A DNA stretch of 64,000 nt from Sipunculus nudus (Eukaryota > Annelida > Sipuncula > Golfingiida > Sipunculidae), in assembly GCA_026874595.1 (NCBI GenBank), contig CM049309.1, forward strand, positions 95,068,723 through 95,132,722, read 5' to 3'. Shown here in pieces: positions 3,901-64,000 of this stretch; within the stretch, counting starts at the first letter, position 1, and every line of letters begins with the position of its first letter. The position numbers and the translations under genes are program-made. The notes below the pieces were generated by a model. The model was not told the DNA's origin and made no database searches. It saw only the letters and a program-made list of their open reading frames with translations.

Positions 3901-5039
3901 TCGGTCTGATTTATTAATTTTCTTTCCTTACTTTAGTACACGGACATATTATGTGTTATCTATGAGTTCTTATGGAATGTTCTCTTCCTCTTAGGTACTA
4001 CAGGGAATATTCTGTTAAATTCCCTGTGCTGCTGCTCCTGACGTCTTGAAGTTTTTTGAGGATGAAAATATCATCTATTCCATCTTCTTTTTTAGCTTGT
4101 TTCGCTGACTAGTTTTCTCGACCTCTTGCCATAATAGCCAGGGTTAAAGGCTATCGTTTGTATACAGGTAGAGGTCTCTGCTGGATTCGGTCCAGAGTGT
4201 CTGCACTTAGTGGATGGTCTGTTTATGTGAGTGCGATGCCCCGCTTCTTTTCTCAAAGTATGCCGATGGTCCTGTGTTTTCTCCCGTCTTACCTCCCGTT
4301 GTAACTGTAGACTATATCATGTCTATTGTCAAAGCATTCGTGTACCTAGTACACTGGATCAAGTTTTATCAGCTAAAAGTTTTGCCACTGAGCAGGTCTT
4401 ATACCCCCTTTCAATGATGGTTTACAGTCACGAAATCTGTCAATATTGCTTAATTCTGCACGATAACAGGTCAGTTTCCCGTTGTACTTTGTGAACATGA
4501 AATAACTTTCACAAAATCAGTAGCCTGCTTATCCCCCCTGTACTATTTGTTAAGTTAAAGATTTGCCAGGCCGTTAGTGATTACATTGAAAACTACCGTA
4601 AATATGTAAAAATAACGTAATTCAGTACCTGGATGATGTCACAGACTCGTCAGAACTTCTTCAGTTGCTAATACTTACGGCCTGTCGAGTGAATACAGTG
4701 AATCATGATATTTGCATATTAGTGCGTCACGAGATCGTTGGAGGGGCGGACCATTACCCCTTATCTGCATGTTAGTACGTCAAGCTTTATGTCCACAACG
4801 GCGATGACCTAACCTTTAAAGTAAAATCCCGTGTAAGACTCCAGTATCGGTGACGTAGCGAAAGATCACCCACAGGCGGTGCCTGGTAGAGCTAACTACT
4901 GCCCTGTTGTGTAATTACCAGTTGGTATGCCTGTAGCCGTGATTTGCATGTGTAATGTGTCATATACTAGAAATGTTTCAAGGAGTCTTGGACCTCCGTT
5001 TATCATACTCCTAGCTGCATGATTTTAAATCTTCTGGCC
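3901..5039. other. No gene recognised
   Basis: Two overlapping plus-strand open frames near 4.2-4.5 kb have no recognisable motif and no exon signals that I trust. I see nothing else in this stretch before the minisatellite begins. Confidence 0.5.
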
Positions 5040-6205
5040 TCGGTGTTAGCCTTTGTCCGGGGATCTTAGTCCTCCTGCCCCGGTGTCGGCCTTTGGCCGG
5101 GATTCTTGGACCTCCAGTCCCCGGTGTCGGCCTTTGGCCGGGGATCTTGGACCTCCTGGCCCAGGTGCCGGCCTTTGTCTAGGGTTCTTGGACCTCCTGG
5201 CATCGTTGTCTGCCTTTGTCCGGAGATCTTTGACCTCCTGGCCTCGGTGTCGGCCTTTGTCCGGAGATCTTAGTCCTCCTGGCCCCGGTGTCGGCCTTTG
5301 GCCGGAGATCTTGGACCTCCTGGCCTCGGTGTCGGCCTTTGTCCGGAGATCTTTGACCTCCTGGCCCCGGTGTCGGCCTTTGTCCGGAGATCTTGGACCT
5401 CCTGGCCTCGGTGTCGGCCTTTGTCCGGAGATCTTTGACCTCCTGGCCTCGGTGTCGGCCTTTGTCCGGTGATCTTGGTCCTCCTGACCCCGGCGTCGGC
5501 CTTTGTCCGGGGATTTTAGTCTTACTGACCCCGGTGTAAGCCATTGTTTAGGATTCTTGGACCTCCTGGCCTCGGTGTCGGCCTTTGTCCGGGGATCTTA
5601 GTCTTTCTGACCCCGGTGTCGGCCTTTGTCCGGGGATCTTAGTCTTCCTGACCCCGGTTTCAGCCTTTGTCCCGGGTTCTTGGACCTCCTAGCCTCGGTA
5701 TCGGCTTTTGACCGGGGATCTATAACCTCCTGGCCCTGGCATCGGCTTTCATGCATAGATCATGGACCTCCTGGTCTCGGTGTCAGCCTTTGTTCGGGGA
5801 TCTTAGAATCCTGGCACCGGTGTCGGCCTCTGTCCTGGGATCTTGGACCTCCTGGCCCCGGTGTCCGCTTTTGTCCGGGGATCTTGGACCTCCTGGCCCC
5901 GGCGTCGGCCTTTGTCACGACATCTTGGACCTCCTAGCTTCGGTGTCAGCCTTTGTCCGATGATCTTGGACCTCCTGGTCTTGGTGTCAGAATTTGTCCA
6001 TGCAGTACCTTGGACCTTCCGGCCTCAGTGTGTACCTTTGTCCGGGGATCAATGACCTCCTGGCTCTGGGGTCGTCTTTTGTCCATGGATCATTGACCTC
6101 CTGGTCTCGGTTTCGACTTTTGTCCATTGATCTTTGACCTCCTGGCCCTGGGGTCGGCTTTTGTCCATGGATCATTGACCTCCTGGTCTCGGTGTCAGCC
6201 TTTGT
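5040..6205. repeat. 41-bp minisatellite, left block (~28 copies)
   Basis: Tandem copies of a 41-base unit with the core CCTCGGTGTCGGCCTTTGT followed by CCGG(A/G)GATCTT. The period was measured directly: CCGGAGATC anchors at 5341 and 5382. Since 41 leaves remainder 2 modulo 3, three units make 123 bases and cycle through all three frames. Most units lack stops in every frame, which produces long artefactual open frames on both strands. Divergence increases toward the right end, where a variant unit containing CATGCAGTACC (near 5999) matches units in the right block at 14,090-15,540. The block ends abruptly at the gypsy element. Confidence 0.93.
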
Positions 6206-6219
6206 CCACGAGAAAGCCT

Positions 6220-7359
6220 GATATCATTGCTAAAATCATGCAAGATCTAGAAAGCAAAGGTTTAATTGAAGAGACTGAAGTTGAAACATAAAAAAATGAT
6301 AGCCTTGCTATGCAATCGGAATTAAAGAAGTTTGAAATGCAAGAAAGGTTAGAAAGAGAAAAACTAGAAAAAGAAATAGAAATTGAGTTTAAACGACTGG
6401 AGTTAGAAAGACTTAAACTAGAACATAGTCTACGTGCTGCCCCAACTCACAGTTTTGATGTTGGTAAACACATTAGACTTGTCCCACCTTTTCAAGAAAA
6501 AGAGGTTGATAAATATTTCTAACACTTTGAGAAGGTAGCTGAAAATTTAAAATGGCCTGAAGAAAATTGGACTATGCTGTTACAAAGTGTATTGACTGGC
6601 AAGGCCAGAGAAATTTATAGAGTTTTCAGTAGAAGCAGCTGCTGACTATGACCTGGTAAAACGGTTAATCCTAAAAGGTTATGAGTTAGTTCCGGAGGCT
6701 TACCGCCAGAAATTCAGAAATTTCGAAAAGCGCAAAGAACAGACCTACGTCGAATTTCCTAGAACAAAAGAGCAGTTGTTTGATGGTGTAGTTCTAAAAA
6801 TATAATGAAAGATTATGACAATTGGCGCCAGTTGATTTTGCTTGAAGAATTTAAGCGCTGCATTAACGCAGATGTTAAAACTTTTCTCGATGAGAAAAGT
6901 CCTGAAACACTTGACATTGCTGCTCAATTAGCTGACGATTATTCATTAACACACAAAATGTCCCTTACTAGCAAATCAAACCAGTCATTCACAAACAAGA
7001 ATGTAAATCAGTATGGTCAATAGAAGTTTACAGCGCAGTCACCAAGTACTAGTAGTCCTGATAGTTCAGCAAAGTCCATTGCTACATCTCAGTCCAAGTC
7101 CACTGTGTCTAAGTCCAACAAAGACCAGTCATTTTCAAAGAAAATCTGTAATTACTGCAAGAAGGAAGGTCATCTAATATCTGACTGCTGGAAACTTGCG
7201 AATAAACCAAATAGCAAACCTTCTGGGTTTGTTTCAAAATCTATGCATAACATAGTACAGGAGCCAGGCTTATTTCATGTAAATAAGGGGTACAACTCCT
7301 TTATTGACTCTAGAAAAGAGTTAGATGCTACGGAGGCCCACGTGCCTTCTAAATCCTAA
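6220..7359 (+). pseudogene. gag-like region, broken
   Basis: Encodes a charged coiled-coil segment (6310-6480, rich in E, K, L and R heptads), then a gag core beginning FDVGKHIRLVPPF and running through a conserved Glu/Tyr-rich region (6660-6960), then a linker and a CCHC zinc knuckle. Stops at 6289, 6520, 7021 and 7357 and shifts between 6615 and 6800 break it. The structural protein would package the element's RNA; this copy cannot make it whole. The N-terminus is incomplete because the upstream sequence is minisatellite. Confidence 0.75.
7150..7191 (+). other. CCHC zinc knuckle of gag
   Basis: Residues CNYCKKEGHLISDC fit C-x2-C-x4-H-x4-C exactly. Such knuckles in retroelement gag proteins bind nucleic acid. 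Confidence 0.88.
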
Positions 7360-7629
7360 GAAGAATCCGTAGCTTGCGGGGTAAAATCCTCAGTTGATTC
7401 CTGCGAGGAATTAAATAAGGCTAGGTCCTTTCAAGACTCCTACGAGGAGTATTCTCTAAATAAGGCTAAGTCCTTTTATGATTCTTGCGAGAGTATTTCA
7501 AAAGAGGCCAAGTCCTCTTATGACAAACAAAAGTTTGTTTCTGCTGAGGAAAATTCCTCTGTTGACTCACATGAGGAGTTTGATGATAAAAAGGATAAAG
7601 ATTCCTTAGATGACTCTGAAACAGAGTTT

Positions 7630-8001
7630 ATGACTGACACTGTCAATGTCAGTTCTTTGTTTGATGAAGCTGAGGTAGTAGATTCCTCTCTTGACTCTGA
7701 AATGGAGTTATTTGAGCCATTCATACATAATGGTTTTGTACCAGTCCCACTTTCAAGTGATTTTTCAGATTCTACCCCTATTAGAATTTTGAGGGACACT
7801 GGTTCAGGCCAGACTCTCATGTTAGCAAACACTTTGCCATTTTCTAATAGGTCCTTTACTGGAGCACATGCACTTGTTAATGGTGTGTTTTCAGAAAAGC
7901 ACACTTCAGTTCCGCTTTACAGTATCCATTTAAAGTCAGACTTGATTTCTGGGAATATTATTGTGGGCATAAGAACTACTTTATCCTTTAAGGGAATTTA
8001 G
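7630..8001 (+). pseudogene. Retroelement aspartic protease region
   Basis: A DTG catalytic triad lies at 7795-7803 in the context ILRDTGSGQTL, followed by hydrophobic strand-like segments as in retropepsins. An acidic, Ser/Asp/Glu-rich linker precedes it (7360-7700). The frame ends at a TAG at 7999, with another stop at 8032, before a linker (8053-8334) leading to integrase. Assigned from the DTG motif and its place between gag and integrase. Confidence 0.78.
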
Positions 8002-8364
8002 TTGCTACTAGTCAATGCTGTTGCAAGTGATTAAGTACAGCCTGTACCAACAGTGACAGAAAAGCCGTCACTTGATCAGGACACTGATCCTGAAAGTCAG
8101 GAAATTCCTGGTTTTTATCCTTCATGTGCTGTAACTAGATCTATGGCCAAGAAAAACACACATGAGGATAATGGTCCAGATAATAACACTGTGGGAGTCA
8201 CTAATGACTCGTCTAATGACTCGCCCGTACAGTATACAGCATTTTCAAGGTCAGAACTTATCGCGGAACAGCACAAGGACCATGAAATTTCATGTTTTTT
8301 TTCCAGGGCAGTTTCTAAAGATGAACTGTCATAGAACCCAGTTTGTTTCTATGTCAAAAATGGA

Positions 8365-9510
8365 GTGCTTATGCGTAAATGGCGACCACCTGATGTTTGT
8401 GCTGATGATGAGTGGGCCATCAAACATCAAATAGTAATTCCCGAAAGCTGTCGCAATGAAATTCTAAGCATGGCACATGAGTCTCCTTTGTCTGGCCATT
8501 TAGGTATAAATAAAACTTATCAGAAAGTTAATACACACTTCTATTGGCCTAACCTCAGGAAAGATATTGTACAATATTGTAAATCATGCCATACATGCCA
8601 GATGGTAGTCAATCCCAATCAGAATCCTCCTAAGGCCCCACTTAGGCCTATTTCTGCTTTCGAGGAACCATTCAGTGGGATTATTGTTGATTGTGTTGGA
8701 CCACTGCCCAAAACAAAATCTGGACATGAATACTTGCTGACAGTTATGTGCACATCTACCAGGTTCCCTGAGGCAATGCCATTGCGCAAAATTAATGCCA
8801 AAAGTGTTGTCAAAGCTCTGACCAAGTTTTTTACAACTTTTAGATTGCCAAAATCCGTCCAGTCTGACCAAGGGTCTAAGTTTTTGTCTGGCTTATTCCA
8901 ACAAGTTATGCTTGAGCTAGGTATAAAACAGTACAGCTCTTCGCCATACCATCCTGAAAGTCAGGGCGCCCTCGAGCGTTTTCACCAGACGTTAAAAAAC
9001 ATGATCAGGACTTATTGCTCTGACACACAGAAAGACTGGGATGAAGGAATCCAGCTATTGCTGTTTGCTGTCAGAGAATCCTTTTAAGAGTCCTTGGGTT
9101 TCAGTCCCTTTGAACTAGTTTTTGGACACTCCGTTCGAGGTCTATTGAAACTGCTAAAAGTAAAACTCTTGTGTGAAAATCCTGATTCTCTTACTTTACT
9201 GCAGTATGTCTCAGACTTTTGCACTAAACTACACAATGCTTGTGAGATTGCAAAGTCAAATCTAAAATCTGCACAAAGTAAAGTGAAAACAAGGTATGAC
9301 AAACACACTATAAGTGGACGTTTGAGTCTGGTGAAAAGGTCCTTGCTTACTTCCCATCCATGGCAGACTTCTGCAAGCTAGGTATTTTGGTCCTTACATT
9401 GCTGACAAGAAAGTCAGTGATTTAATTACATACTGTTGACACCAGATAGGCGTAAGAAGAAACAACTGTGCCATGTTAACAAGGTGAAACCATATTATGA
9501 CAGAAATAGC
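8365..9510 (+). pseudogene. Integrase, located upstream of RT
   Basis: The zinc-binding N-terminus shows HES..SGHLG and CKSCHTC (about 8480-8605). The catalytic core shows D at 8689 (IIVDCVGPLP), D at 8866 (VQSDQGSKF) and E at 8974 (GALERFHQTLK), with 35 residues between the last two, so DD35E is intact. A TAA at 9085 interrupts the frame, which then continues (GFSPFELVFGHSVRG) to about 9330. After frame shifts, a YFGPY stretch near 9390-9405 is the GPY/F motif typical of gypsy integrases. Role in the family: insertion of the cDNA into chromosomal DNA. It is non-functional here because of stops and shifts. Confidence 0.9.
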
Positions 9511-9642
9511 ACATCAGATGTTGTACATAATGTTACTGCTGTAAATTGTGTAAACTCTGACCCTGACCCAGTTAAAGTAGATACTGATTGTAAGTGTGAT
9601 GTAGACATTTAGTGTGGTACAGTACCATTAAAAAACTCAGAC

Positions 9643-11049
9643 GTGCTTAACAACCTGGATGCCAAACTGTCACACCTTACCGCACAACAACAACAAGACC
9701 TCAAGAACCTGCTGCGGAATTATGAGCATTTGTTTAGTGACATTCCAACGCGGAGTAATATATTTTGCCATGACGTCGATGTTGGCGAGGTACGCGCAGT
9801 CAAGCAGCATCCTTATAGACTGAATCCAGAAAAGCAAAAGTATCTACAAGATGAGGTTCAGTATTTGCTGGACAATGATTTTATTGAACCTAGTAACAGT
9901 AACTGGAGTTCACCATGTATTCTTGTGCCAAAACCTGATGGAAGTTACCGTATGTGCACAGATTATCGAAAACTGAACTCTGTCCCCAAGACTGACACGT
10001 TCCCGATTCCGAGGATCGATAATTGTATTGATAGAGTCGGTAGCTCCAGATATGTCTCCAAGTTTGACTTGCTAGGAGGAACCTGGTGGGTTATGCTGAC
10101 AGATCGAGCGAAAGAAGTGTCCGCATTTGTGGCGCTGCAAGGACTGTACCAGTATAAAGTTATGCCGTTTGGCATGAAGAACCCGCCAGCCACGTTCCAG
10201 CGCCTCATCCACATGGTTGTCAAGGACATTCAGGGCTGCGACGCATATATTGATGACCTTATCGTGTACAGCGGCACCTGGGAGAAACTTCTGCAAATTC
10301 TTCGCGACCTCTTCATAAGACTCAGTTGGCAACGTCTGACCGTCAACTCAGTGAAATCTGAGTTTTGTCATGCACAAGTAACAATTTTGGGTCATATTGT
10401 AGTGCAGGGTCAGGTAAAACCTGTTGATGCTAAAATAAGTGCTATTTCTGCATTTCCTAGACCAGAAAACAAAAAGCAAATAAAGCGTTTTCTTGGTATG
10501 GTTGGATACTACAGGAAGTTTTGTCCAAATTTTTCTGCTGTAGCTGAACCTTTGACTAATTTGTTAAAGAGGAAACAAAAGTTTGTATGGAATGTTCAGT
10601 GTGAAAGTGCATTTCAGAATTTGAAAGCATTTCTGCAAAGTTCACCAGTTTTAGCAGCTCCAGACTTTTCTGTATCTTTTAATTTAGCTGTGGATGCTAG
10701 TGATACTGCTGCTGGTGCTGTGTTGTTACAAGAAGGCAATGATGGCATAGATCATCCAATTTTTTTATTTCTCAAGAAAATTTAATGCAAACCAGAAAAA
10801 CTACTCCACTATTGAAAAAGAATGTTTGGCTTTGATTTTGGCGTTGCAACATTTTGAAGTTTCTGTTACTTCATCAGTGAGGCCTATCATTGTCTTCAGT
10901 GATCGCGATCCTTACGTTCATGAACAAGTTGAAGTGTAAAAATCAGAGATTGTTGAGATGGAGTTTGTTCTTACAGGATTACAATCTTGATATCATACAC
11001 ATTAAAGGGAGAGACAATGTACTTGCTGATTGCTTATCTAGATGTTTAT
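9643..11049 (+). pseudogene. Reverse transcriptase and RNase H
   Basis: A 380-codon open stretch (9643-10785) carries the gypsy-type RT. Motifs are VPKPDGSYRMCTDYRKLN, the first catalytic Asp in KFDLL, FGMKNPPATFQRLI, and the YIDD box at 10246-10257, then the connection region (FLGMVGYYRKFCPNFS). RNase H begins with AVDASDTAAGAVL; a one-base shift in a T-run near 10,765 moves the rest to another frame, ending with an ADCLSR-like motif near 11,040. A stop at 9610 lies just upstream. The first triplet at 9643 is GTG and is not a real start; this is an internal part of a polyprotein. Confidence 0.9.
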
Positions 11050-12190: not shown

Positions 12191-13993
12191 CTATTTGGCG
12201 CTATTTATCAGTGTGTGTGCCTGTTTAAAGAGATGGGTTTTTAGTCATTTGCGGAAAGCCAAGAGCGATGGTGCATCCCTTAAAATGTCAGGAAGTTCAT
12301 TCCAAAGTGTTGGTGCAGCCGCTTTAAAACTACGGTCACCATATGTTACAGTCCGCGTTTTTGGTACGACAAGCAAGGACTTTGAGGAGGATCTTAGAGT
12401 CCGAGCAGGTCGGCGGCGTTGCACAAGGTCACAGATGTATTGTGGAGCAATGCCTGCAAGTGCTTGGTATGTGAACTCCAGGACCTTGAACTTGCATCTA
12501 TATTCCACCGGAAGCCAATGAAGACTGGCCAACACAGGTGAGATGTGGTCCCTTCTGCGTGTCCTTGTGATAAGCCTGGCAGCAGCATTTTGTACTCTCT
12601 GTAGGCGATTCATAAGGGTGCGTGGTATTCCATATAGCAGAGAGTTAGCATAGTCCAGCCTCGATGTGATAGTGGCTTGAACTAGTGTCCTGCACGCATC
12701 TGCTGTAATGTACTTCCGGATGGCACCGATGTTCCGCAGCTGAAAATAGCAGGTCCTGCTAATGGCATTTACTTGGGATGCCATGGTGAGATGACAATCC
12801 TGCACAAGGCCAAGGTTCTTGACCTGTTTAGCTGGGGCAATACGGTGACTTGCAATGGTAACACTTAAATCCCTGAACAGATTTTCGCACTGCTTAGGGT
12901 GGAAAATGATGACCTCTGTCTTATCTTGATTTAACTTTAACATATTGCTGTTCATCCATCCCTTCACTTCCTCCGCTAACACCTGGATTCTGGAGAATAT
13001 ATCATCCCAGTTTCCTGATGGTTTGGCCATAGTGTAGATCTGTGAATCATCTGCATAACAGTGATATTTGAAACCATGGTTCCTTATGATATCAGAAACA
13101 GGTCTGGTATACATACAATATGCCTTTGGCCCCAGCACTGATCCTTGAGGTACACCATACTGCAACACCTGCGGAGTTAACTTGGCGTCCCCTATGGCCA
13201 CACATTGTGTCCTACCCTCAAAGTATGAGCGAAACCAGTCCAGTGCTCGTGAAGTAATACCAAAGCGGTGACGAAGGCGGTCCAGTAGGATGTTATGGTC
13301 AATAGTGTCGAACGCTGCCGAGAGGTCCAGCATAACGAGAACGACACAGTTTCCATGGTCAAGAGACTCCATAATATCTGCCTGGACCTTCAGCAGTGCC
13401 GACTCTGTAGAGTGACCGACGCGGTATGCGGACTGGAAGTCATCGTGGAGATGGTATTTTTGTAGGTGGTTCTCTATGCGACTAGATACTGCCTTCTCCA
13501 TCAGCTTGGAAATAAATTGCAAGTTCGACACAGGCCTGTAGTTTTTTAAAGTATCCTGGTCCAGCCCTTTCTTCTTGAGCAGTGGTCTGACTAGAGTTGT
13601 CTTGAAGGATGCTGGTACTGTAGAAGTGGTCAGGGATCTATTAATGATAGCGGTGATCAGTGGGGTTAGCTGAGTGGAGCACTCCTTGATGAGCCAAGTA
13701 GGGAGGGGGTCAAGGTCACATGACTTGCAAGGCGCTTTTGAGACCAATCTCTGTACCTCCTCTTCTGTAACAGGAGTGAACTCTGTGAGAGGCACACCAT
13801 CATAGGCTGGCTCTGCTTCTACATCGAAGGCTGTTGAGCTCTCAAAGCTGATATTATTGCGGATGGTAGTAATTTTATTTATGAAAAACTCACCAAAGCA
13901 ATCAGCTAGTTCTCTAGACGACCTGTGGTTAGGCAAAGTCCCTTTGTCAGACTCACCCATAAGCTTCTTTCCTAATTCCCCTAGACATTTCAC
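12191..13993 (-). pseudogene. L2 LINE reverse transcriptase ORF with late stop
   Basis: A 582-codon open frame (12245-13993) with RT motifs in order: PLLKKKGLDQDTLKNYRPVS, SAYRVGHSTESALL, VVLVMLDLSAAFDTIDH, the GVPQGSVLGP box and the catalytic YADD (in CYADDSQIY), then the C-terminal domain with LHWLPVEYRCKFKVL and WNELP. A TGA at 12245-12247 ends it, but the same frame continues for 17 more codons (LKTHLFKQAH...) to TAG at 12191-12193, the expected family end. So one nonsense change, close to the C-terminus, is the only obvious lesion in the retained part. The 5' end is lost, so ATG at 13993 is internal. Confidence 0.88.
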
Positions 13994-14089
13994 GGTGCCC
14001 AGTGTTACAGAATCTGATTTTTTTTATCTCCATTACAGAATTTGTGTTCATCACGCATATGTGATCTGTTTATATGAGGTTCCGTATCA

Positions 14090-15540
14090 AGGTACCACCT
14101 GGCCTCGTTGTCGGCCTTTTTCCGGGTATCTTGGACCTCCTGGCCTCGGTGTCGGCCTTTGTCCGGGTAACTTGGATCTCATGGCCTTGGAGTCGGCCTT
14201 TGTCCGAGGATCTTGGACCTCCTGGCCTGGTGTCGGCCTTTGTCCGGTGATCTTGGACCTCCTGGCCTCGGTTTCGACCTTTGTCCGGGAATCTTGGACC
14301 TCCTGGCCCCGGTATCTGCCTTTGTCCAGTAATCTTGGACCTCCTGGCCCCGGTGTCTGCCTTTGTCCAGTGATCTTGGACCTCCTTGCCTCGGTGTCGG
14401 CTTTTGTTCAGGGATCTTTGACCTTCTGGCGCTGGCGTAGGCTTTTGTCCATGGGTCATGAACCTCCTGGTCTTGGTGTCAGCCTTTGTCCATGCAGGTA
14501 CCTTGGACCTTCTTGCCTCCGTGTGTACCTTTGTCCGGGGATCATAGACCTCCTGGCCCCGGTGTCGGCCTTTGTCCGGGAATCTTGTAACTCCTGGTCT
14601 CGGTGTCGGCTTTTGTCCAGGGATCTTTGACCTATTGGCCCTGGCGTCGGCCTTTGTCCGGTGATCTTGGACCTCATGGCCTCGGTGTCAGCATTTGTCC
14701 ATGCAGGTACCTTGGACTTCCTGGCCTTGGTGTCGGCCTTTGTCCGGGGATCTTAGACCTCCTGGCCCCGGTGTCAGCCTTTGTCCGGAGATCTAGGACC
14801 TCCTGGCCCTGTTGTCAGCTTTTGTCCAGCGATCTTTGACCTCCTGGCCCTGGCGTCGGCCTTTGTCCGGTGATCTTGGACCTCATGGCCTCGGTGTCGA
14901 CCCTTGTTTGGCCTTTGTCCAGTGATCTTGGACCTCCTGGCCTCGGTGTCGACTTTTGTTCGGGGATCGTGGGCTTCCTGGCCTCGGTGTCGGCCTTTGT
15001 CCGGTGATCTTGGAACTCCTGGTCTCGGTGTCAGCCTTTGTCCATGCAGGTACCTTGGACTTCATGGCCTTGGTGTCGGCCTTTGTCCGGGGATCTTAGA
15101 CCTCCTGGCCCCGGAGTCAGCCTTTGTCCGGAGATCTAGGACCTCCTGGCCCTGTTGTCAGCTTTTGTCCAGCGATCTTTGACCTCCTGGTCCTGGCGTC
15201 GGCCTTTGTCCGGTGATCTTGGACCTCATGGCCTCGGTGTCGACCTTTGTTTGGCCATTGTCCAGTGATCTTGGACCTCCTGGCCTCGGTGTCGACTTTT
15301 GTTCGGGGATCGTGGGCTTCCTGGCCTCGGTGTCGGCCTTTGTCCGGTGATCTTGGAACTCCTGGTCTCGGTGTCAGCCTTTGTCCATGCAGGTACCTTG
15401 GACTTCCTGGCCTTGGTGTCGGCCTTTGTCCGGGGATCTTAGACCTCCTGGCCCCGGTGTCAGCCTTTGTCCGGGGATCTAGGACCTCCTGGCTCCGTTG
15501 TCAGCTTTTGTCCAGCGATCTTTGACCTCCTTTCGACCTT
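14090..15540. repeat. 41-bp minisatellite, right block with 343-bp higher-order repeat
   Basis: Same 41-base unit as at 5,040-6,205. Superimposed is a higher-order period of 343 bases: the marker CATGCAGGTACC occurs at 14700, 15043 and 15386, spaced exactly 343 apart, with an older copy at 14491. The 343-base block is eight units plus a longer variant unit. The left block holds a related marker near 5999 followed by the same variant (GTGTGTACCTTTGTCC), so both blocks descend from one array that the retroelements now separate. Confidence 0.92.
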
Positions 15541-25106: not shown

Positions 25107-45569
<20,463 letters not shown>

Positions 45570-54837: not shown

Positions 54838-54880
54838 GATTATGCCCCTTTCTTGACTTATAGTCAGCTGAGCTAATAAG
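54838..54880 (+). repeat. Isolated tail of the dispersed repeat
   Basis: TGACTTATAGTCAGCTGAGC followed by TAATAAG, the terminal signature of the 49,995-54,503 family without its body. Confidence 0.6.
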
Positions 54881-56388: not shown

Positions 56389-56633
56389 TTAGAGTTTAGA
56401 ATGCATTTTAGCCATTAATTTTTCCAGCTTCATGGCCAAGCCTAGATCCCCCTTTATTTTCAGTTTTCCGCTCATGAATGCTGCCGTTGGCTTTAAACTT
56501 CCCTGGAACATTTTTACAAAGTCGTCACTGTCCATCACCATGGTGCAATTTGCTTGTCCCTCCTGTGGCTCCCCCTGTCCCACAGCACCTGAACCATTCT
56601 TCAGGTCGAGGTACCACAGACCCTCCTCAGCCC
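56389..56633 (-). CDS. HSDL2: HSDL2 last exon: SCP2 domain and SKL terminus
   Basis: Acceptor TTTCAG, 80 codons plus TAA at 56389-56391. Contains AEEGLWYLDLKNGSG, NCTMVMDSDDFVKMFQGSLK and the SCP2 core, ending HSKL. Confidence 0.93.
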
Positions 56634-59600
56634 CTGAAAGAATATCAAATTTAAAATACTTAAATACAGATGAAATCTTTAATTAATTACTATGTTAACA
56701 AAAGAAATGTTCAGTAAAATATATAAAAGACAAATGGCATATACCATTTATATTCCTTGCATGATTCCAAATGTTTTTCCCACAAAGTTCATAATGTGTC
56801 AATGCTAAGATTATGAAATTTGAAAGATTTTTTAACACAATATTTATTAACATGAATATACAGTATGTATTATTTAAATTTGAAGAATTAGAACGAAATA
56901 ATACTTGTCAGACAGTGTCCTGTGACAAAAGCCTAATTTCCATAACATGAAATTACCTTTTCTTCAACACGTTAAATTACTTTGAATGCCTTGGATATTA
57001 AAATAATAATTATTGACCACTGGGGAAGAACTAATATTGACACCAAAATTATGTTGAATTCATATGTATTAAAGTTTTATAGGAGAGCGACAATGCCTCA
57101 ACATTCCAGATTTGACAAGTCGTTACCCTTAAGATTGAAGGCAAAGACACCACCAATGTCTTTGACCAGCTCCGGGTTCAGCATGGTCTTGAGGCCAGCG
57201 AAGGTTTTGGCTGCCGGAGTGTCTCCTGATGATGATGACTTGATCTCAAAGGCTGGGGTTCCACCTCCCTCCTTCAGGTGGTCTTGGACAGCTTCGGGAC
57301 TCGTCTCATCCAGGAAGAAGTCAGGCATCAAATTGGCATCTTAAACAAAAGTGGAGAGCACAGCTCAGGCAACTCTGTAGACTGTAGGCCCAAATGGTAT
57401 CAATATTAAATTAAATCATTTGCCTTTAGATGGCAGAGGCTCAGGTGGGGATGTAGAATCTGCCATCTGGCAGCAAAATTTGTAACTATTTCAGACCGAT
57501 CACAGTATACTGGCATCCCATGTGGTAATCAAGTACAGAAGTAAGTCAGTGGCACTGTCACCACACAGCTAAACCCAGGCTTGTCAGTGACACTGTCACC
57601 ACACAGCTGAACCCAGGCTTGTCAGTGACACTGTCACCACACAGCTGAACCCAGGCTTGTCAGTGGCACTGTCACCACACAGCTGAACCCAGGCTTGTCA
57701 GTGGCACTGTCACCACACAGCTGAACCCAGGCTTGTCAGTGGCACTGTCACCACACAGCTGAACCCAGGCCTGTCAGTGACACTGTCACCACACAGCTGA
57801 ACCCAGGCTTGTCAGTGACACTGTCACCACACAGCTGAACCCAGGCCTGTCAGTGGCACTGTCACCACACAGCTGAACCCAGGCTTGTCAGTGACACTGT
57901 CACCACACAGCTGAACCCAGGCTTGTCAGTGGCACTGTCACCACACAGCTGAACCCAGGCCTGTCAGTGACACTGTCACCACACAGCTGAACCCAGGATT
58001 GTCAGTGGCACTGTCACCACACAGCTGAACCCAGGCTTGTCAGTGACACTGTTACCACACAGCTGAACCCAGGCTTGTCAGTGACACCGTCACCACACAG
58101 CTGAACCAAGGCTTGTCAGAGGCACCGTCACCACACAGCTGAACCCAGGCATGTCAGTGGCACTGTCACCACACAGCTGAACCCAGGCTTGTCAGTGACA
58201 ATGTCACCACACACCTGAACCAATGCTTGTCAGTGACACTGTCACCACACAGCTGAACCCAGGCTTGTCAGTGGCACTGTCACCACACAGCTGAACCCAG
58301 GCTTGTCAGTGGCATTGTCACCTCACAGCTGAACCTGGCTTGTCAGTGACATGGTCACCACACAGCTGAACCCAAGCTTGTCAGTGACACTATCACCACA
58401 CAGCTGAACCCAGGCTTGTCAGTGGCACTGTCACCTCACAGCTGAACCCAGGCTTGTCAGTGGCACTGTCACCACACAGCTGAACCTGGCTTGTCAGTGA
58501 CATGGTCACCACACAGCTGAACCCAGGCTTGGCAGTGCACTGTCATCACACAGCTGAACCCAGGATTGTCAGTGACACTGTCACCACACAGCTGAACCCA
58601 GGCTAACCTTTGACATACTCACTGTAAGGTATGCCTATATATATATATATATGCATTTACAGCCATTTTATTCACGTTTTACAGTATCATATATATTGAG
58701 CAAAAGGAAATAATATAATCCATAACCTTGAAGAATGGGAAATAGTATAACATTCTTTAAAGGCTTAAAAATGGACAAATGACTTGCTGATAATATGAAC
58801 ATGAAAACAGACCATAAATTATTTTTTTGTGGTTCAAATAATAAAAATTTCACTGATTTCATAAACTATCTTGTGGAAAATCCAGAACTACAAAACACAC
58901 TCTAAAACTCCTTGAGTGTCTATTTGTCTACTTACTGGGCACAAAGCTGTACTGTTCCAGGTCCTTGACTCCAGCTGCAGTAAGCACCTCATCATCAATT
59001 GTAAAGTTACCAGTGAAAGATCTGCTGTTCTTGGAGAGAATCACATAAGCAGCATCAGCCATGATGTCAGGCTTACGGCTCATGTTTCTAGTCGCTTCAT
59101 CCCCTCCCCCGAGCATCTCCAAAGCAGCGGTCCATATACCTGAGGAATAATAATATACCAATAAATAAGTCTGTCCATATACCTGTGGATTAATAAAATT
59201 CAAATAAATAAGTCTGTCCATATACCTGAAGATTAACAATATACCAATAAATAAGTCTGTTCATATACCTGAGGATTACCAATATACCAATAAATAAGTC
59301 TGTCCATATTCTGTTAACGGACAGACGCCAGGTCGTCAGGACGGCTGGATGGACGACGGACAAAGAGTGATTGCCAAAGCTCAGATGACTTACAGTCAGC
59401 TGAGCTAAATATACCAATAAATCAATCTGTCCATATACCTGAGGATTTATAATATATCAATAAATAAGTCTGTCTATATACCTGAGGATTAATAATATAC
59501 CAATAAATAAGTCTGTCCATATACCTGAGGATTAACAATATACCAATAAATAAGTCTGTCCATATACCTGAGGATTAACAATATACCAATAAATAAGTCT

Positions 59601-62600
59601 GTCCATTTACCTGAGGATTTATAATATATCAATAAATAAGTCTGTCCATATACCTGAGGATTAATAATAAACCAATAAATAAGTCTGTCCATTTACCTGA
59701 GGATTAATAATATACCAATAAATAATATACCAATAAACTAGATGTGGTTGGACAATGGTCCTCAGAGAGACCCGCATTTCTTGTAGTGCTGGACTAGTTT
59801 ACCTGTGGGTGAAAAGTTAAGGTTAAAGTAGAAAAATAGGACAAAGAGAAACAGGTTTTTATCCATATTAATGAGGGAAAAAAATCCAACTGGGTCAAAT
59901 AATATTATAGAAGATATGTCTGAAATAAAGTGTGCAATAGAAAATCACCAATTGTACTCTGTTGGCCATATATGATTTTGAGCAAGTCTGTATTTCAACA
60001 GGTCAGAAGCCCTCATATAGGCACCGATGATTCCTGAGAAAATGACAAAGCTCAAGCATGTTCTTGTTGAGATATCTGGTGATAAAAAAATCACCCATTG
60101 TGCTCTGGCAGCTATATTGATATTGGAAAAGAACTGTAATTCGATAGGGATAGTATCCATTCATCCCTGTGAATTTGGGAAAGCTGAAGTATGTTGTTGT
60201 TGAGTTTTCGCACACAAAATAAAGTCAGCAATTTGGCTGTGGTTGCCATATTGGAATTCCAACAGGTCTGTAATTCATAAAAGTCTAGAGCCCTCGTATG
60301 TACCAATCATCCCTGTGAATTTGGGAAAGCTGAAGTATGTTGTTGTTGAGTTATCCACGCTAAAGAAAGTGTCACTGACGGAAGGACGGAAAGACGGAAG
60401 GATGGGCTGACACAGTGATCACTAAAGGGCACTGCTTGTCAAGCAGTATGTCAATATACCTGATGATTAATATTATATATCAGTAAATAGGTCTGTCCAT
60501 ATACCTGATGATGAATAATATATATCAGTAAATAAGTCTGTCTATGTATCTGACAAATTACCATAATAATGCCTGAGTGAGTGAGAGAATCTGAACTCTT
60601 GTGTGTATAAGATGTCTACTGTTACACAGTACATGTGCCTACCAGGTGTGTGTATTAGTTGGTGGATCGAGGGATGTTGCCATTAGATGTCTACTGTTAC
60701 ACAGTACATGTGCCTACCAGGTGTGTGTATTAGTTGGTGGATGGAGGGATGTTACTATAAGATGTCTTCTGTTACATAGTACATGTGCCTGCCAGGTGTG
60801 TGTATTAGTTGGTGGATGGAGGGATGTTACTATAAGATGTCTTCTGTTACATAGTACATGTGCCTGCCAGGTGTGTGTATTAGTTGGTGGATCGAGGGAT
60901 GTTACTATAAGATGTCTTCTGTTACATAGTACATGTGCCTGCCAGGTGTGTGTATTAGTTGGTGGATTGAGGGATGTTACTATAAGATGTCTTCTGTTAC
61001 ATAGTACATGTGCCTGCCAGGTGTGTGTATTAGTTGGTGGATTGAGGGATGTTACTATAAGATGTCTACTGTTACACAGTACATGTGCCTACCAGGTGTG
61101 TGTATTAGTTGGTGGATGGAGGGATGTTACCATTAGATGTCTACTGTTACACAGTACATGTGCCTACCAGGTGTGTGTATTAGTTGGTGGATGGAGGGAT
61201 GTTACCATTAGATGTCTACTGTTACACAGTACATGTGCCTACCAGGTGTGTGTATGAGTTGGTGGATGGAGGGATGTTACTATAAGATGTCTACTGTTAC
61301 ACAGTACATGTGCCTACCAGGTGTGTGTATTAGTTGGTGGATGGAGGGATGTTACCATTAGATGTCTACTGTTACACAGTAAATGTGCCTGCCAGATAAC
61401 TTACCTGTTCTTGGCCACAGTGCATTGACAGCGATGCCGTCCTCCCTGAACTCCTCTGCCATTCCAAGCACACACATGGACATTCCATACTTTGCCATGG
61501 TGTATGCTAAAATTAAAAATAAAACATTCTGTAAGTAACATAATGCTTTTTCATTAGTAATTCATTTACTCAAGCTCAAGGTTTCCTCTTTATTTCCATC
61601 ATTTCAACATGCTGTGGTCAGCTGTGATATTTTGTTCCTTGTAATGAGGATGATAAATCTGTGATGATACACTAACCTTAACAGTATCCTTCTTAGTCTG
61701 ATCAAAATAGTGCTCATTATACTTATTTGCACGGTTTGATAGTAAGTATTCACATATATTTCATCAAAAGTGGGAAAGTACATAACATTTTGTTGTAATA
61801 TTATTTGAATACCCTCTCAGAACAAGTATGATATCACAATTACTATGACGACTTTGAGCAATATCACTATGATCCAAAAATAACTACCAAATGAATGATA
61901 CATCTTTATACATTCAGGACTGTAATCAGTAAAAGTGAACATGGTGAATAATTTACCCTTGAACCAGTGTGGACTCATGATCAGTGGTATATCATAATGA
62001 ATTACCTGTGTTCTCCTTGAACCAGTGTGGACTCATGATCAGTGGTATAATGAATTACCTGTGTTGTCCTTGAGCCAGTGTGGACTCATGATCAGTGGTA
62101 TATCATAATGAATTACCTGTGTGGTCCTTGAACCAGTGTGGACTCATGATCAGTGGTATAATGAATTACCTGTGTTCTCCTTGAACCAGTGTGGACTCAT
62201 GATCAGTGATATAATGAATTACCTGTGTTGTCCTTGAACCAGTGTGGACTCATGATCAGTGGTATATCATAATGAATTACCTGTGTGGTCCTTGAACCAG
62301 TGTGGACTCATGATCAGTGGTATAATGAATTACCTGTGTTGTCCTTGAACCAGTGTGGACTCATGATCAGTGGTATATCATAATGAATTACCTGTGTTGT
62401 CCTTGAACCAGTATGGACTCATGATCAGTGGTATCTCATAATGAATTACCTGTGTGGTCCTTGAACCAGTGTGGACTCATGATCAGTGGTATAATGAATT
62501 ACCTGTGTTGTCCTTGAACCAGTGTGGACTCATGATCAGTGGTATAATGAATTACCTGTGTGGTCATTGAACCAGTGTGGACTCATGATCAGTGGTATAT

Positions 62601-64000
62601 CATAATGAATTACCTGTGTTGTCCATGAACCAGTGCAGACTTATGTGTACAGTGCTACAATGAATTACCTGTGTGGTCCTTGAACCAGCGAGGACTCATG
62701 TTCAGTGGTATAATAAATTACCTGTGTGGTCCTTGTACCAGCAAGGACTCATGTTCAGTGTTATCATAAATTACCTGTGTGGTCCTTGCACCAGTGTGGA
62801 CTCATGATCAGTGGTATAATGAATTACCTGTGTTGTCCTTGAACCAGTGTGGACTCATGATCAGTGGTATATCATAGTGAATTACCTGTGTTGTCCATGA
62901 ACCAGTGCAGACTTATGTGTACAGTGCTACAATGAATTACCTGTGTGGTCCATGAACCAGCGAGGACTCATGTTCAGTGGTATAATAAATTACCTGTGTG
63001 GTCCTTGAACCAGTGTGGACTCATGATCAGTGGTATAATGAATTACCTGTGTTGTCCTTGAACAAGTGTGGACTCATGATCAGTGGTATAATGAATTACC
63101 TGTGTGGTCATTGAACCAGTGTGGACTCATGATCAGTGGTATATCATAGTGAATTACCTGTGTTGTCCATGAACCAGTGCAGACTTATGTGTACAGTGCT
63201 ACAATGAATTACCTGTGTGGTCCTTGAACCAGCAAGGACTCATGTTCAGTGGTATAATAAATTACCTGTGTGGTCCTTGTACCAGCAAGGACTCATGTTC
63301 AGTGTTATCATAAATTACCTGTGTGGTCCTTGCACCAGTGTGGACTCATGATCAGTGGTATAATGAATTACCTGTGTTGTCCTTGAACCAGTGTGGACTC
63401 ATGATCAGTGGTATATCATAATGAATTACCTGTGTAGTCCGTTTACCAGTGCAGACATATGTGTACAGTACTTCAATGAATTACCTGCGTGGTCCTTGAA
63501 AAAGTGTGGACTCATGATCAGTGGTATATCATAATGAATTACCTGTGTAGTCCGTGAACCAGTGCAGACTTATGTGTACAGTACTTCAATGAATTACCTG
63601 TGTGGTCCTTGAACCAGCGAGGACTCATGTTCAGTGGTATAATAAATTACCTGTGTGGTCCTTGAACCAGTGTGGACTCATGATCAGTGGTATAATAAAT
63701 TACCTGTGTGGTCCTTGAACCAGTTTGGACTCATGATCAGTGGTATAATGAATTACCTGTGTGGTCCTTGTACCAGTGAGGACTCATGTTCAGTGGTATA
63801 ATAAATACCTGTGTGGTCCTTGAACCAGTATGGACTCATGATCAGTGGTATCTCATAATGAATTACCTGTGTTGTCCTTGAACCAGTGTGGACTCATGAT
63901 CAGTGGTATATCATAATGAATTACCTGTGTAGTCCGTTCACCAGTGCAGACATATGTGTACAGTACTTCAATGAATTACCTGTGTGGTCCTTGAAAAAGT
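56389..64000 (-). CDS. HSDL2: Hydroxysteroid dehydrogenase-like protein 2 (SDR + SCP2), 3' part
   Basis: Four exons assemble in phase: 61405-61506, 58936-59139, 57127-57339 and 56389-56633, about 253 C-terminal residues. First comes YTMAKYGMSMCVLGMAEEF, whose YxxxK is the catalytic pair of short-chain dehydrogenases, then NALWPRT, then KPDIMADAAY and SFTGNFTIDD, then a Pro-Asp-Phe-Phe-Leu-Asp-Glu linker, and a sterol carrier protein 2 domain (DDFVKMFQGSLKPTAAFMSG, KLKIKGDLGLAMKLEKL). The C-terminus is SKL, a canonical type 1 peroxisomal targeting signal. In known orthologues the protein is peroxisomal/mitochondrial and linked to lipid metabolism; its substrate is not settled. The exons for the Rossmann fold and cofactor site lie beyond 64,000. 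Confidence 0.92.
56700..57126. other. HSDL2: HSDL2 last intron
   Basis: AT-rich intron between the two SCP2 exons; nothing else recognised. Confidence 0.6.
57127..57339 (-). CDS. HSDL2: HSDL2 penultimate exon
   Basis: Phase 1-1. Encodes MPDFFLDETSPEAV, a Ser-rich linker and the start of SCP2 (FAGLKTMLNPELVKDIGGVF). The donor GTAACG is non-consensus at +4/+5, but the family sequence continues correctly across it. Confidence 0.9.
57545..58604. repeat. 38-bp minisatellite in an HSDL2 intron (~28 copies)
   Basis: The unit CAGTGACACTGTCACCACAC continues AGCTGAACCCAGGCTTGT; period 38 measured from 57601 to 57639. Copies vary mainly GACACT/GGCACT. GTGACACTGTCAC in each unit is nearly palindromic. 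It does not reach either neighbouring exon. Confidence 0.95.
58605..58935. other. HSDL2 intron remainder
   Basis: AT-rich, with a short AT microsatellite at 58,636-58,652. No gene. Confidence 0.6.
58936..59139 (-). CDS. HSDL2: HSDL2 exon: end of SDR domain
   Basis: Phase 1-1. Encodes IWTAALEMLGGG, KPDIMADAAYVIL, SFTGNFTIDDEVL and DLEQYSFVP. Its acceptor (CCTCAG/GT) and first ten bases are the unit repeated in the adjoining 43-bp array. Confidence 0.92.
59130..59740. repeat. 43-bp array repeating the 3' splice acceptor of an HSDL2 exon (~13 copies)
   Basis: The unit on the plus strand is GTCCATATACCTGAGGATTA then ACAATATACCAATAAATAAG and TCT. On the transcribed strand each unit reads ATTAATCCTCAG/GTATATGGAC: acceptor plus the first ten bases of the real exon, whose own copy at 59,130-59,146 is the array's left end. 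Starts near 59131, 59174, 59217, 59260, 59303 and onward; one copy is interrupted by a repeat tail at 59,310-59,408. Related units recur at 60,455-60,545. Confidence 0.92.
59310..59408 (+). mobile_element. Dispersed-repeat tail inserted within the 43-bp array
   Basis: GTTAACGGACAGACG ... GGACGACGGACAAAGAGTGA ... TTACAGTCAGCTGAGCTAAA, the same terminal segment as at 29,460-29,550 and 54,400-54,503. The 43-bp unit resumes directly after it. Confidence 0.8.
59741..60454. other. Intronic repeats, no gene
   Basis: Contains two or three diverged copies of a ~150-base segment (CATTGTGCTCTGGCAGC / CTGTGAATTTGGGAAAGCTGAA then GTATGTTGTTGTTGAG) and an ACGGAAGGACGGAAAGACGG stretch near 60,375. No coding sequence seen. 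Confidence 0.55.
60455..60545. repeat. Diverged extra copies of the 43-bp unit
   Basis: CTGTCCATATACCTGATGAT and AGTAAATAAGTCTGTCTATG show the same unit beyond the main array, so the array once extended further or was broken by insertions. Confidence 0.75.
60611..61395. repeat. 75-bp minisatellite abutting an HSDL2 exon (~10.5 copies)
   Basis: The unit GATGTCTACTGTTACACAGT continues ACATGTGCCTACCAGGTGTG, TGTATTAGTTGGTGGATGGA, GGGATGTTACCATTA. Two subtypes (TCTACTGTTACACAG and TCTTCTGTTACATAG) occupy the flanks and the middle. Seventy-five is divisible by three and one frame lacks stops, giving a 218-codon artefactual ORF. The array stops about ten bases from the donor of exon 61405-61506. 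Confidence 0.95.
61405..61506 (-). CDS. HSDL2: HSDL2 exon with catalytic YxxxK
   Basis: Phase 1-1. Begins with CA completing an alanine codon (with the G of the upstream exon), then YTMAKYGMSMCVLGMAEEF and VNALWPRT. Acceptor TTTTAG, donor GTAAGT. A 75-bp array begins about ten bases inside the downstream intron. Confidence 0.93.
61507..61949. other. HSDL2 intron, unique part
   Basis: AT-rich intron between the YxxxK exon and the donor array; nothing recognised apart from the acceptor at its left edge. Confidence 0.6.
61950..64000. repeat. 53/58-bp array repeating an HSDL2 exon end with its splice donor (~37 copies, runs off the window)
   Basis: The plus-strand unit ATTACCTGTGTGGTCCTTGA continues ACCAGTGTGGACTCATGATC, AGTGGTATAATGA. 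On the transcribed strand it reads CCACTGATCATGAGTCCACA, CTGGTTCAAGGACCACACAG/GTAATTCATT, encoding PLIMSPHWFKDHT before a GT donor in phase 1. That is the expected HSDL2 sequence immediately before AYTMAKYG of the next exon. Spacing alternates 53 and 58 (starts 62001, 62054, 62112). Many units differ by substitutions that change the peptide (e.g. FNDHT, CLHW-stop). A larger block near 62,619 recurs near 63,164, a ~545-base higher-order period. The authentic full exon lies beyond 64,000. Confidence 0.9.

Follow-up and report, generated by a model that had tools for sequence, protein, structure and literature searches.

Background

The closest described counterparts of the locus analysed here are the 'mirages' of lancelets, minisatellites lying across exon-intron boundaries that have been reported in amphioxus from Adh3, from the globin genes BflGb6 and BflGb9, and from TnC, with the repeats of PGBD5 having been compared with them (PMC3087553, PMC3902484). 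As portrayed in these reports, mirages leave regular splicing undisturbed, vary in length between alleles, and come from cephalochordates. A second point of comparison is provided by internal tandem repeats within human segmental duplications, some of which are described as lying at exon-intron boundaries, where they may create novel introns, yet these consist on average of four 30-bp units and belong to recent primate paralogues, unlike the arrays considered below (PMC2812944). A third is the ratchet point of Drosophila, described as a juxtaposed AG/GT (the slash here and below marking the splice junction) together with a cryptic exon, some 50 nt long, with its own donor (PMC8605326).

Here we describe an HSDL2 gene of the sipunculan annelid Sipunculus nudus, part of which lies in a 64,000-bp stretch of DNA (the window). 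Judged by its sequence, this locus is a mirage: each repeat unit crosses a splice junction and includes both exon and intron sequence, and AG/GT is present in many copies (37 of 38 in a donor-side array, and 13 of 15 listed in an acceptor-side array, the genuine acceptor included). As in the amphioxus mirages of the cited reports, the unit spans an exon-intron boundary, 5' or 3', many but not all units carry AG/GT, and the unit lengths given for amphioxus Adh3 (10-72 bp) overlap those found here. The two differ in copy number, with at least 37 copies at one donor in HSDL2 as against the 6 and 3 given for BflGb6, and in that a single gene here bears arrays on both the donor and the acceptor side. 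An earlier note on this DNA had drawn attention to the donor-side array; neither the acceptor-side array nor the precedent of mirages figured in it.

Structure of the donor-side array

The donor-side minisatellite, delimited using Tandem Repeats Finder and unit-by-unit alignment, occupies positions 61957-64000 on the minus strand and multiplies the tail of an HSDL2 exon, its donor and the start of the following intron. For 61957-63995, Tandem Repeats Finder reports a period of 53 with 37.1 copies, alongside higher-order rows of 219 and 272 bp. The basic unit of 53 bp, of which there are variants of 52, 55 and 58 bp, is made up of about 40 nt of exon tail, a CAG/GTAATT donor and 13-18 nt of intron. 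Our count of 37 donor-bearing copies (36 complete, and the first cut by the window edge) agrees with the figure of at least 37 in the earlier note, and is a lower bound since the array runs to the window edge at 64000. One further, truncated copy (61958-62005, minus strand) forms the inner edge of the array: it has no donor block and is the sole exception to the presence of AG/GT, its tail being cut after TTCAAG and followed by GGTAAATTATTC and unique intron, such that the array passes visibly into GGTAAATTATTCACC and unique sequence. Among the 37 donor-bearing copies, 36 have the donor 9-mer CAGGTAATT and one has CAGGTATTT.

Each copy had been thought to encode the peptide PLIMSPHWFKDHT. In its exact form this peptide is present in only 5 of the 36 complete units, while PLIMSPHWFKDNT is found in 6 and PLNMSPRWFKDHT in 2, yet a stop-free version of PLIMSPHWFKDHT or variants thereof is retained by 30 of the 36. 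A diverged type, which we term B (TVHI.LHW.., with a 2-nt insertion), makes up 6 of the complete units and no longer encodes the peptide, with a stop falling within the tail in two of the six.

Mean pairwise identity among the copies is 0.84, and the differences between them are structured: similarity at lags of 5 and 10 copies is 0.875, as compared with 0.825-0.861 at the other 13 lags up to 15. Unequal exchange fits this array, given its higher-order periods and the excess similarity at these two lags. Outside the array, the unit core has no donor-like match elsewhere in the window at up to 6 edits, and an exact 25-nt core has no match in viral_contigs, the sole collection searched with the unit.

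Identity of the repeated tail and the downstream exons

The exon that follows the array inward, at 61405-61506 on the minus strand (AYTMAKYGMSMCVLGMAEEFREDGIAVNALWPRT; AYTMAKYG...WPRT), runs from phase 1 to phase 1 and matches human HSDL2 (3kvo, E 3.1e-10), as well as the short-chain dehydrogenase 3sc4 (E 6e-11) and 3e03. The array tail joins this exon in phase 1, and one array tail together with the next two exons gives an unbroken alignment to 3kvo over 115 of 115 query residues (E 1.9e-34), with the same joined fragment likewise aligning to the short-chain dehydrogenases 3sc4 and 3e03. The fragment also matches PRK08278 from residue 1 (E 6.8e-48), at 163 bits, which lies under the whole-protein cut-off of 250 for that model because only a fragment of the protein lies in the window; its Pfam SDR matches are likewise under their cut-offs (25.8 versus 27, and 15.8 versus 26.6). 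The SDR YxxxK segment of HSDL2 is present in its family context, PL....WF..H.AYTMAKYG.

Further downstream on the same strand lie an exon at 58936-59139 (GIWTAALEMLGG...YSFVP), an exon at 57127-57339 (NANLMPDFFLDETSPEAV..., by direct reading of the sequence), and the last coding exon at 56389-56633, which contains the C-terminal SCP2 domain expected of HSDL2 (PF02036, E 1e-22, above cut-off) and the stop codon. All four exons seen are open and in phase as far as the SCP2 domain and stop, and the three that were searched are also family-like. We infer that the complete exon to which the tail belongs lies beyond 64000, as would the N-terminal Rossmann half of the protein.

For the tail itself, a profile was built from the 13 residues preceding AYTMAKYG in the best 80 of at least 565 confirmed prokaryotic loci (38 distinct tails), these relatives having been found with the two exons alone as query and the array not used. 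Five non-B tail variants score 23.6-35.6, a range that encloses the human segment (27.7), whereas two B variants score -5.8 and -18.1. Of 123,721 other 13-mers in the window, none exceeds 6.3. A chance resemblance of the unit to HSDL2 is ruled out by this profile. The earlier note had named alignment with HSDL2 as one comparison on which its reading could fail, and the similarity held; together, the 3kvo alignment and the tail profile bear out its view that the unit joins an HSDL2 exon tail to a phase-1 donor and keeps register with the YTMAKYG exon. Going by profile score, PLNMSPRWFKDHT, the highest among the tails scored, is probably nearest to the original exon.

These results also bear on the suggestion that the array reflects an assembly error or that this is a non-functional copy of the gene. 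The array does extend to the very edge of the window, but its copies differ from one another at the level and in the structured manner described above, and the four visible exons are open and in phase, the three searched being family-like as well; we consider this explanation very improbable.

Acceptor-side array and other repeats of the gene

A second array spanning a splice junction ends the intron between 61405 and 59139. It lies at 59130-59725 on the minus strand, with a 43-bp unit that ends in CCTCAG followed across the junction by GTATATGGAC, and thus comprises an acceptor and roughly 10 nt from the start of the following exon; the genuine acceptor and exon start, at 59139, belong to the last unit. 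Outlying, diverged copies with junctions at 60459, 60504 and 60549 are found at 60445-60553 (minus strand). In total there are 12 intact decoy copies of acceptor and exon start, and CAG/GT has been lost from two listed copies: an inserted element interrupts the one at 59311, and the one at 60549, at the edge, keeps AG but reads AT in place of GT. The inserted element (59312-59407) is a dispersed one starting TAGCTCAGCTGACT, and similar starts are seen by eye near 54875 and 54505.

Two further minisatellites on the minus strand belong to the gene. The first, with a 75-bp unit in 10.5 copies at 60606-61395, begins about 10 bp inside the intron that follows the donor of exon 61405-61506 and does not include the splice site. 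The second, with a 38-bp unit at 57545-58604, lies in the next intron at a distance of 206 bp from the nearest splice site, and so offers a contrast within the same gene. Arrays occupy 4,611 of the 7,612 bp of the visible gene region, and two of the three that are wholly visible terminate at one end no more than 12 bp from one of seven splice sites, a placement equalled or bettered in 64 of 20,000 random placements, in a post hoc test that took one donor to lie at 58934, now placed at 58936.

Other features of the window

Minisatellites are present elsewhere in the window. One 41-bp G+C-rich minisatellite occurs in two arrays 8 kb apart (5034-6207 and 14094-15531), the second of which adjoins a reverse-transcriptase ORF at 12245-14023 (minus strand). 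A 46-bp minisatellite at 31118-32774, with 36 copies and 97% matches, is more uniform than the other minisatellites listed; by eye, no exon is seen at the edges of this array or of the 38-bp array at 57545-58604. Retroelement pieces are found on the plus strand at 7024-10785, including integrase domains (8335-9087) and a reverse transcriptase/RNase H (9613-10785), and the integrase precedes the reverse transcriptase, an order suggesting that these are perhaps pieces of two elements; no Pfam family was matched at 7024-7359. A gene for an EGF-type membrane protein lies at 25107-26740 (minus strand), in which one EGF domain is confirmed at 25107-25640, and further EGF-like exons and a transmembrane stretch are apparent by eye.

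Variation in the coding part and at the splice junction

Among the 30 non-B units, only one of 17 distinct changes in the exon part is synonymous, as against 18% expected without constraint (p 0.34), giving no sign of coding constraint in a comparison of low power. On the account we favour, the copies have ceased to serve as coding sequence.

The splice junction presents a different picture. On a tree of the 36 donor-array units, CAG/GTAATT receives 0 of 42 inferred changes versus 7.1 expected, the lowest value among 53 alignment windows, and 34 of 20,000 random column sets are as low; this test excluded both the truncated copy and the one cut by the window edge, and treated a one-base deletion in the donor block in copy 63808, where the preceding donor reads GTATTT, as missing data and not as a change. 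In the acceptor array, CAG/GTA receives 1 of 36 changes versus 5.0 expected, again the lowest (of 43 windows) and a level matched or undercut by 224 of 20,000 random column sets; this count includes the damaged copies 60549 and 59311 and becomes 0 of 32 changes when both are removed. These figures depend on where the block is drawn: its length differs between the arrays (9 columns in the donor array, 6 in the acceptor array), its limits were set by the analyst, the windows are short, and the copies are related. With 6 columns in the donor array there are still no changes, but 4 of 53 windows are as low, and with 9 columns in the acceptor array there are 4 of 36 changes, with as few or fewer in 1,428 of 20,000 random column sets. 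Bare AG/GT is not exceptional in either array, with 7 of 53 donor windows and 7 of 43 acceptor windows as low, as are 1,389 and 1,957 of 20,000 random column sets respectively. In a 15-nt donor block, picked after the alignment had been viewed, B units share 97% identity with the other copies, versus 64% elsewhere. Taken as sequence comparisons, these observations are suggestive of constraint on the splice block, but they are not proof of it.

A potential explanation for this pattern is recursive splicing that corrects itself. With AG/GT in register in nearly every copy, a splice made at the wrong site would leave a usable GT or AG, a second splicing step would restore the correct mRNA, and selection would act against copies that lose the block. 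The earlier note had offered two options only, a strongly preferred outermost donor or an effect of copy number on expression; these do not exhaust the possibilities, as AG/GT in register makes such stepwise splicing a third. That the splice block is the least variable part of both arrays, and that the B units keep their donor block while diverging elsewhere, would be expected under stepwise removal. The geometry is also that described for Drosophila ratchet points, given a 43-58 nt unit with a donor at each end (PMC8605326): on the evidence of sequence geometry, both systems have a juxtaposed AG/GT and a second donor about 50 nt further on. Re-splicing is itself known, and the exon junction complex is described as holding it in check (PMC8184009, PMC8234774). 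However, the unexceptional behaviour of AG/GT by itself, the weakening of the result when block lengths are altered, and the retention of AG without GT in copy 60549 all count against this explanation, as does the lack of any obvious pyrimidine tract before AG in the donor-side copies when viewed by eye (a pyrimidine-rich stretch is partly present in the acceptor array, also by eye). Moreover, the Drosophila ratchet donor is reported to be usually stronger than the donor of the cryptic exon (PMC8605326), whereas the copies here are equal, and ratchet points are described as conserved sites in long introns, whereas the HSDL2 arrays are tandem copies of an exon junction. We regard self-correction of this kind as unlikely.

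Donor strength and the consequences of inner donors

Scored using a human donor table, array donors reach 4.6 bits, as compared with 8.6, 3.1 and 0.9 for the visible exon donors. Of 156 other GT sites outside the arrays in the gene region, just one attains that score, necessarily the 8.6 donor. At this score the array donors are not obviously too weak for use, and consequently the outermost must be favoured somehow, or mistakes must be repaired. Reading past the donor of a copy leads to a stop 3-6 codons on in 33 of the 37 copies, close to the 6-7 codons previously suggested for typical units, while in the other four the stop comes 18-19 codons on.

Competition among donors could in this way lower or tune HSDL2 output, with copy number acting as a dial. 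Array donors do outscore two of the three visible exon donors, and use of an inner donor would in most copies soon bring a stop, both of which are in keeping with such an effect, but the lancelet literature cited suggests that regular mRNA is produced (PMC3087553, PMC3902484), and we think it improbable that the arrays act as a regulator.

Origin of the arrays

The explanation we favour, with a probability of about 0.75, is that the arrays arose by unequal exchange as by-products that the gene tolerates, both being spliced out between the outermost donor and the last acceptor. It takes its start from what can be read directly in the window, namely the family identity of the repeated tail, its phase, the structure of the copies and the lack of any sign of coding constraint among them. 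The donor array would have begun as a tandem duplication running from the 3' end of the HSDL2 exon through the 5' splice site into the start of the intron, and unequal exchange would then have expanded it to at least 37 copies. In a separate event, the acceptor of the second exon downstream, together with the opening bases of that exon, would have been multiplied likewise. The complete exon would have been kept at the outer edge of the donor array and unique intron at its inner edge, and the sites used are most likely the donor of that exon, which would lie beyond 64000, and the acceptor of the exon at 59139, the last in its array. Splicing from this donor to exon 61405-61506, and from there to this acceptor, would take out both arrays as intron. 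The order of these events, the unseen complete exon, the choice of donor and the normal expression of the gene are the reconstructed parts of this sequence of steps.

Data from lancelets point in the same direction, indicating regular mRNA despite repeats at the boundary (PMC3087553, PMC3902484), although one of these reports allows that boundary copies could act as cryptic sites (PMC3087553). One observation sits less well with the by-product explanation: variation in each array is lowest at the splice block, a pattern not expected if the by-products were wholly neutral.

Significance

Should mistakes at these junctions indeed be spliced again, this would explain both how one gene harmlessly carries 37 or more donors in register alongside some twelve decoy acceptors, and what permits repeats of this type to expand at splice junctions; the locus thus bears on whether copies of AG/GT are harmless because errors are corrected by further splicing. 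It also bears on how duplications of exon-intron boundaries could seed new introns. HSDL2 of this species, in which dozens of near-identical donors and some twelve near-identical decoy acceptors all lie in register, offers a natural test of splice-site choice.
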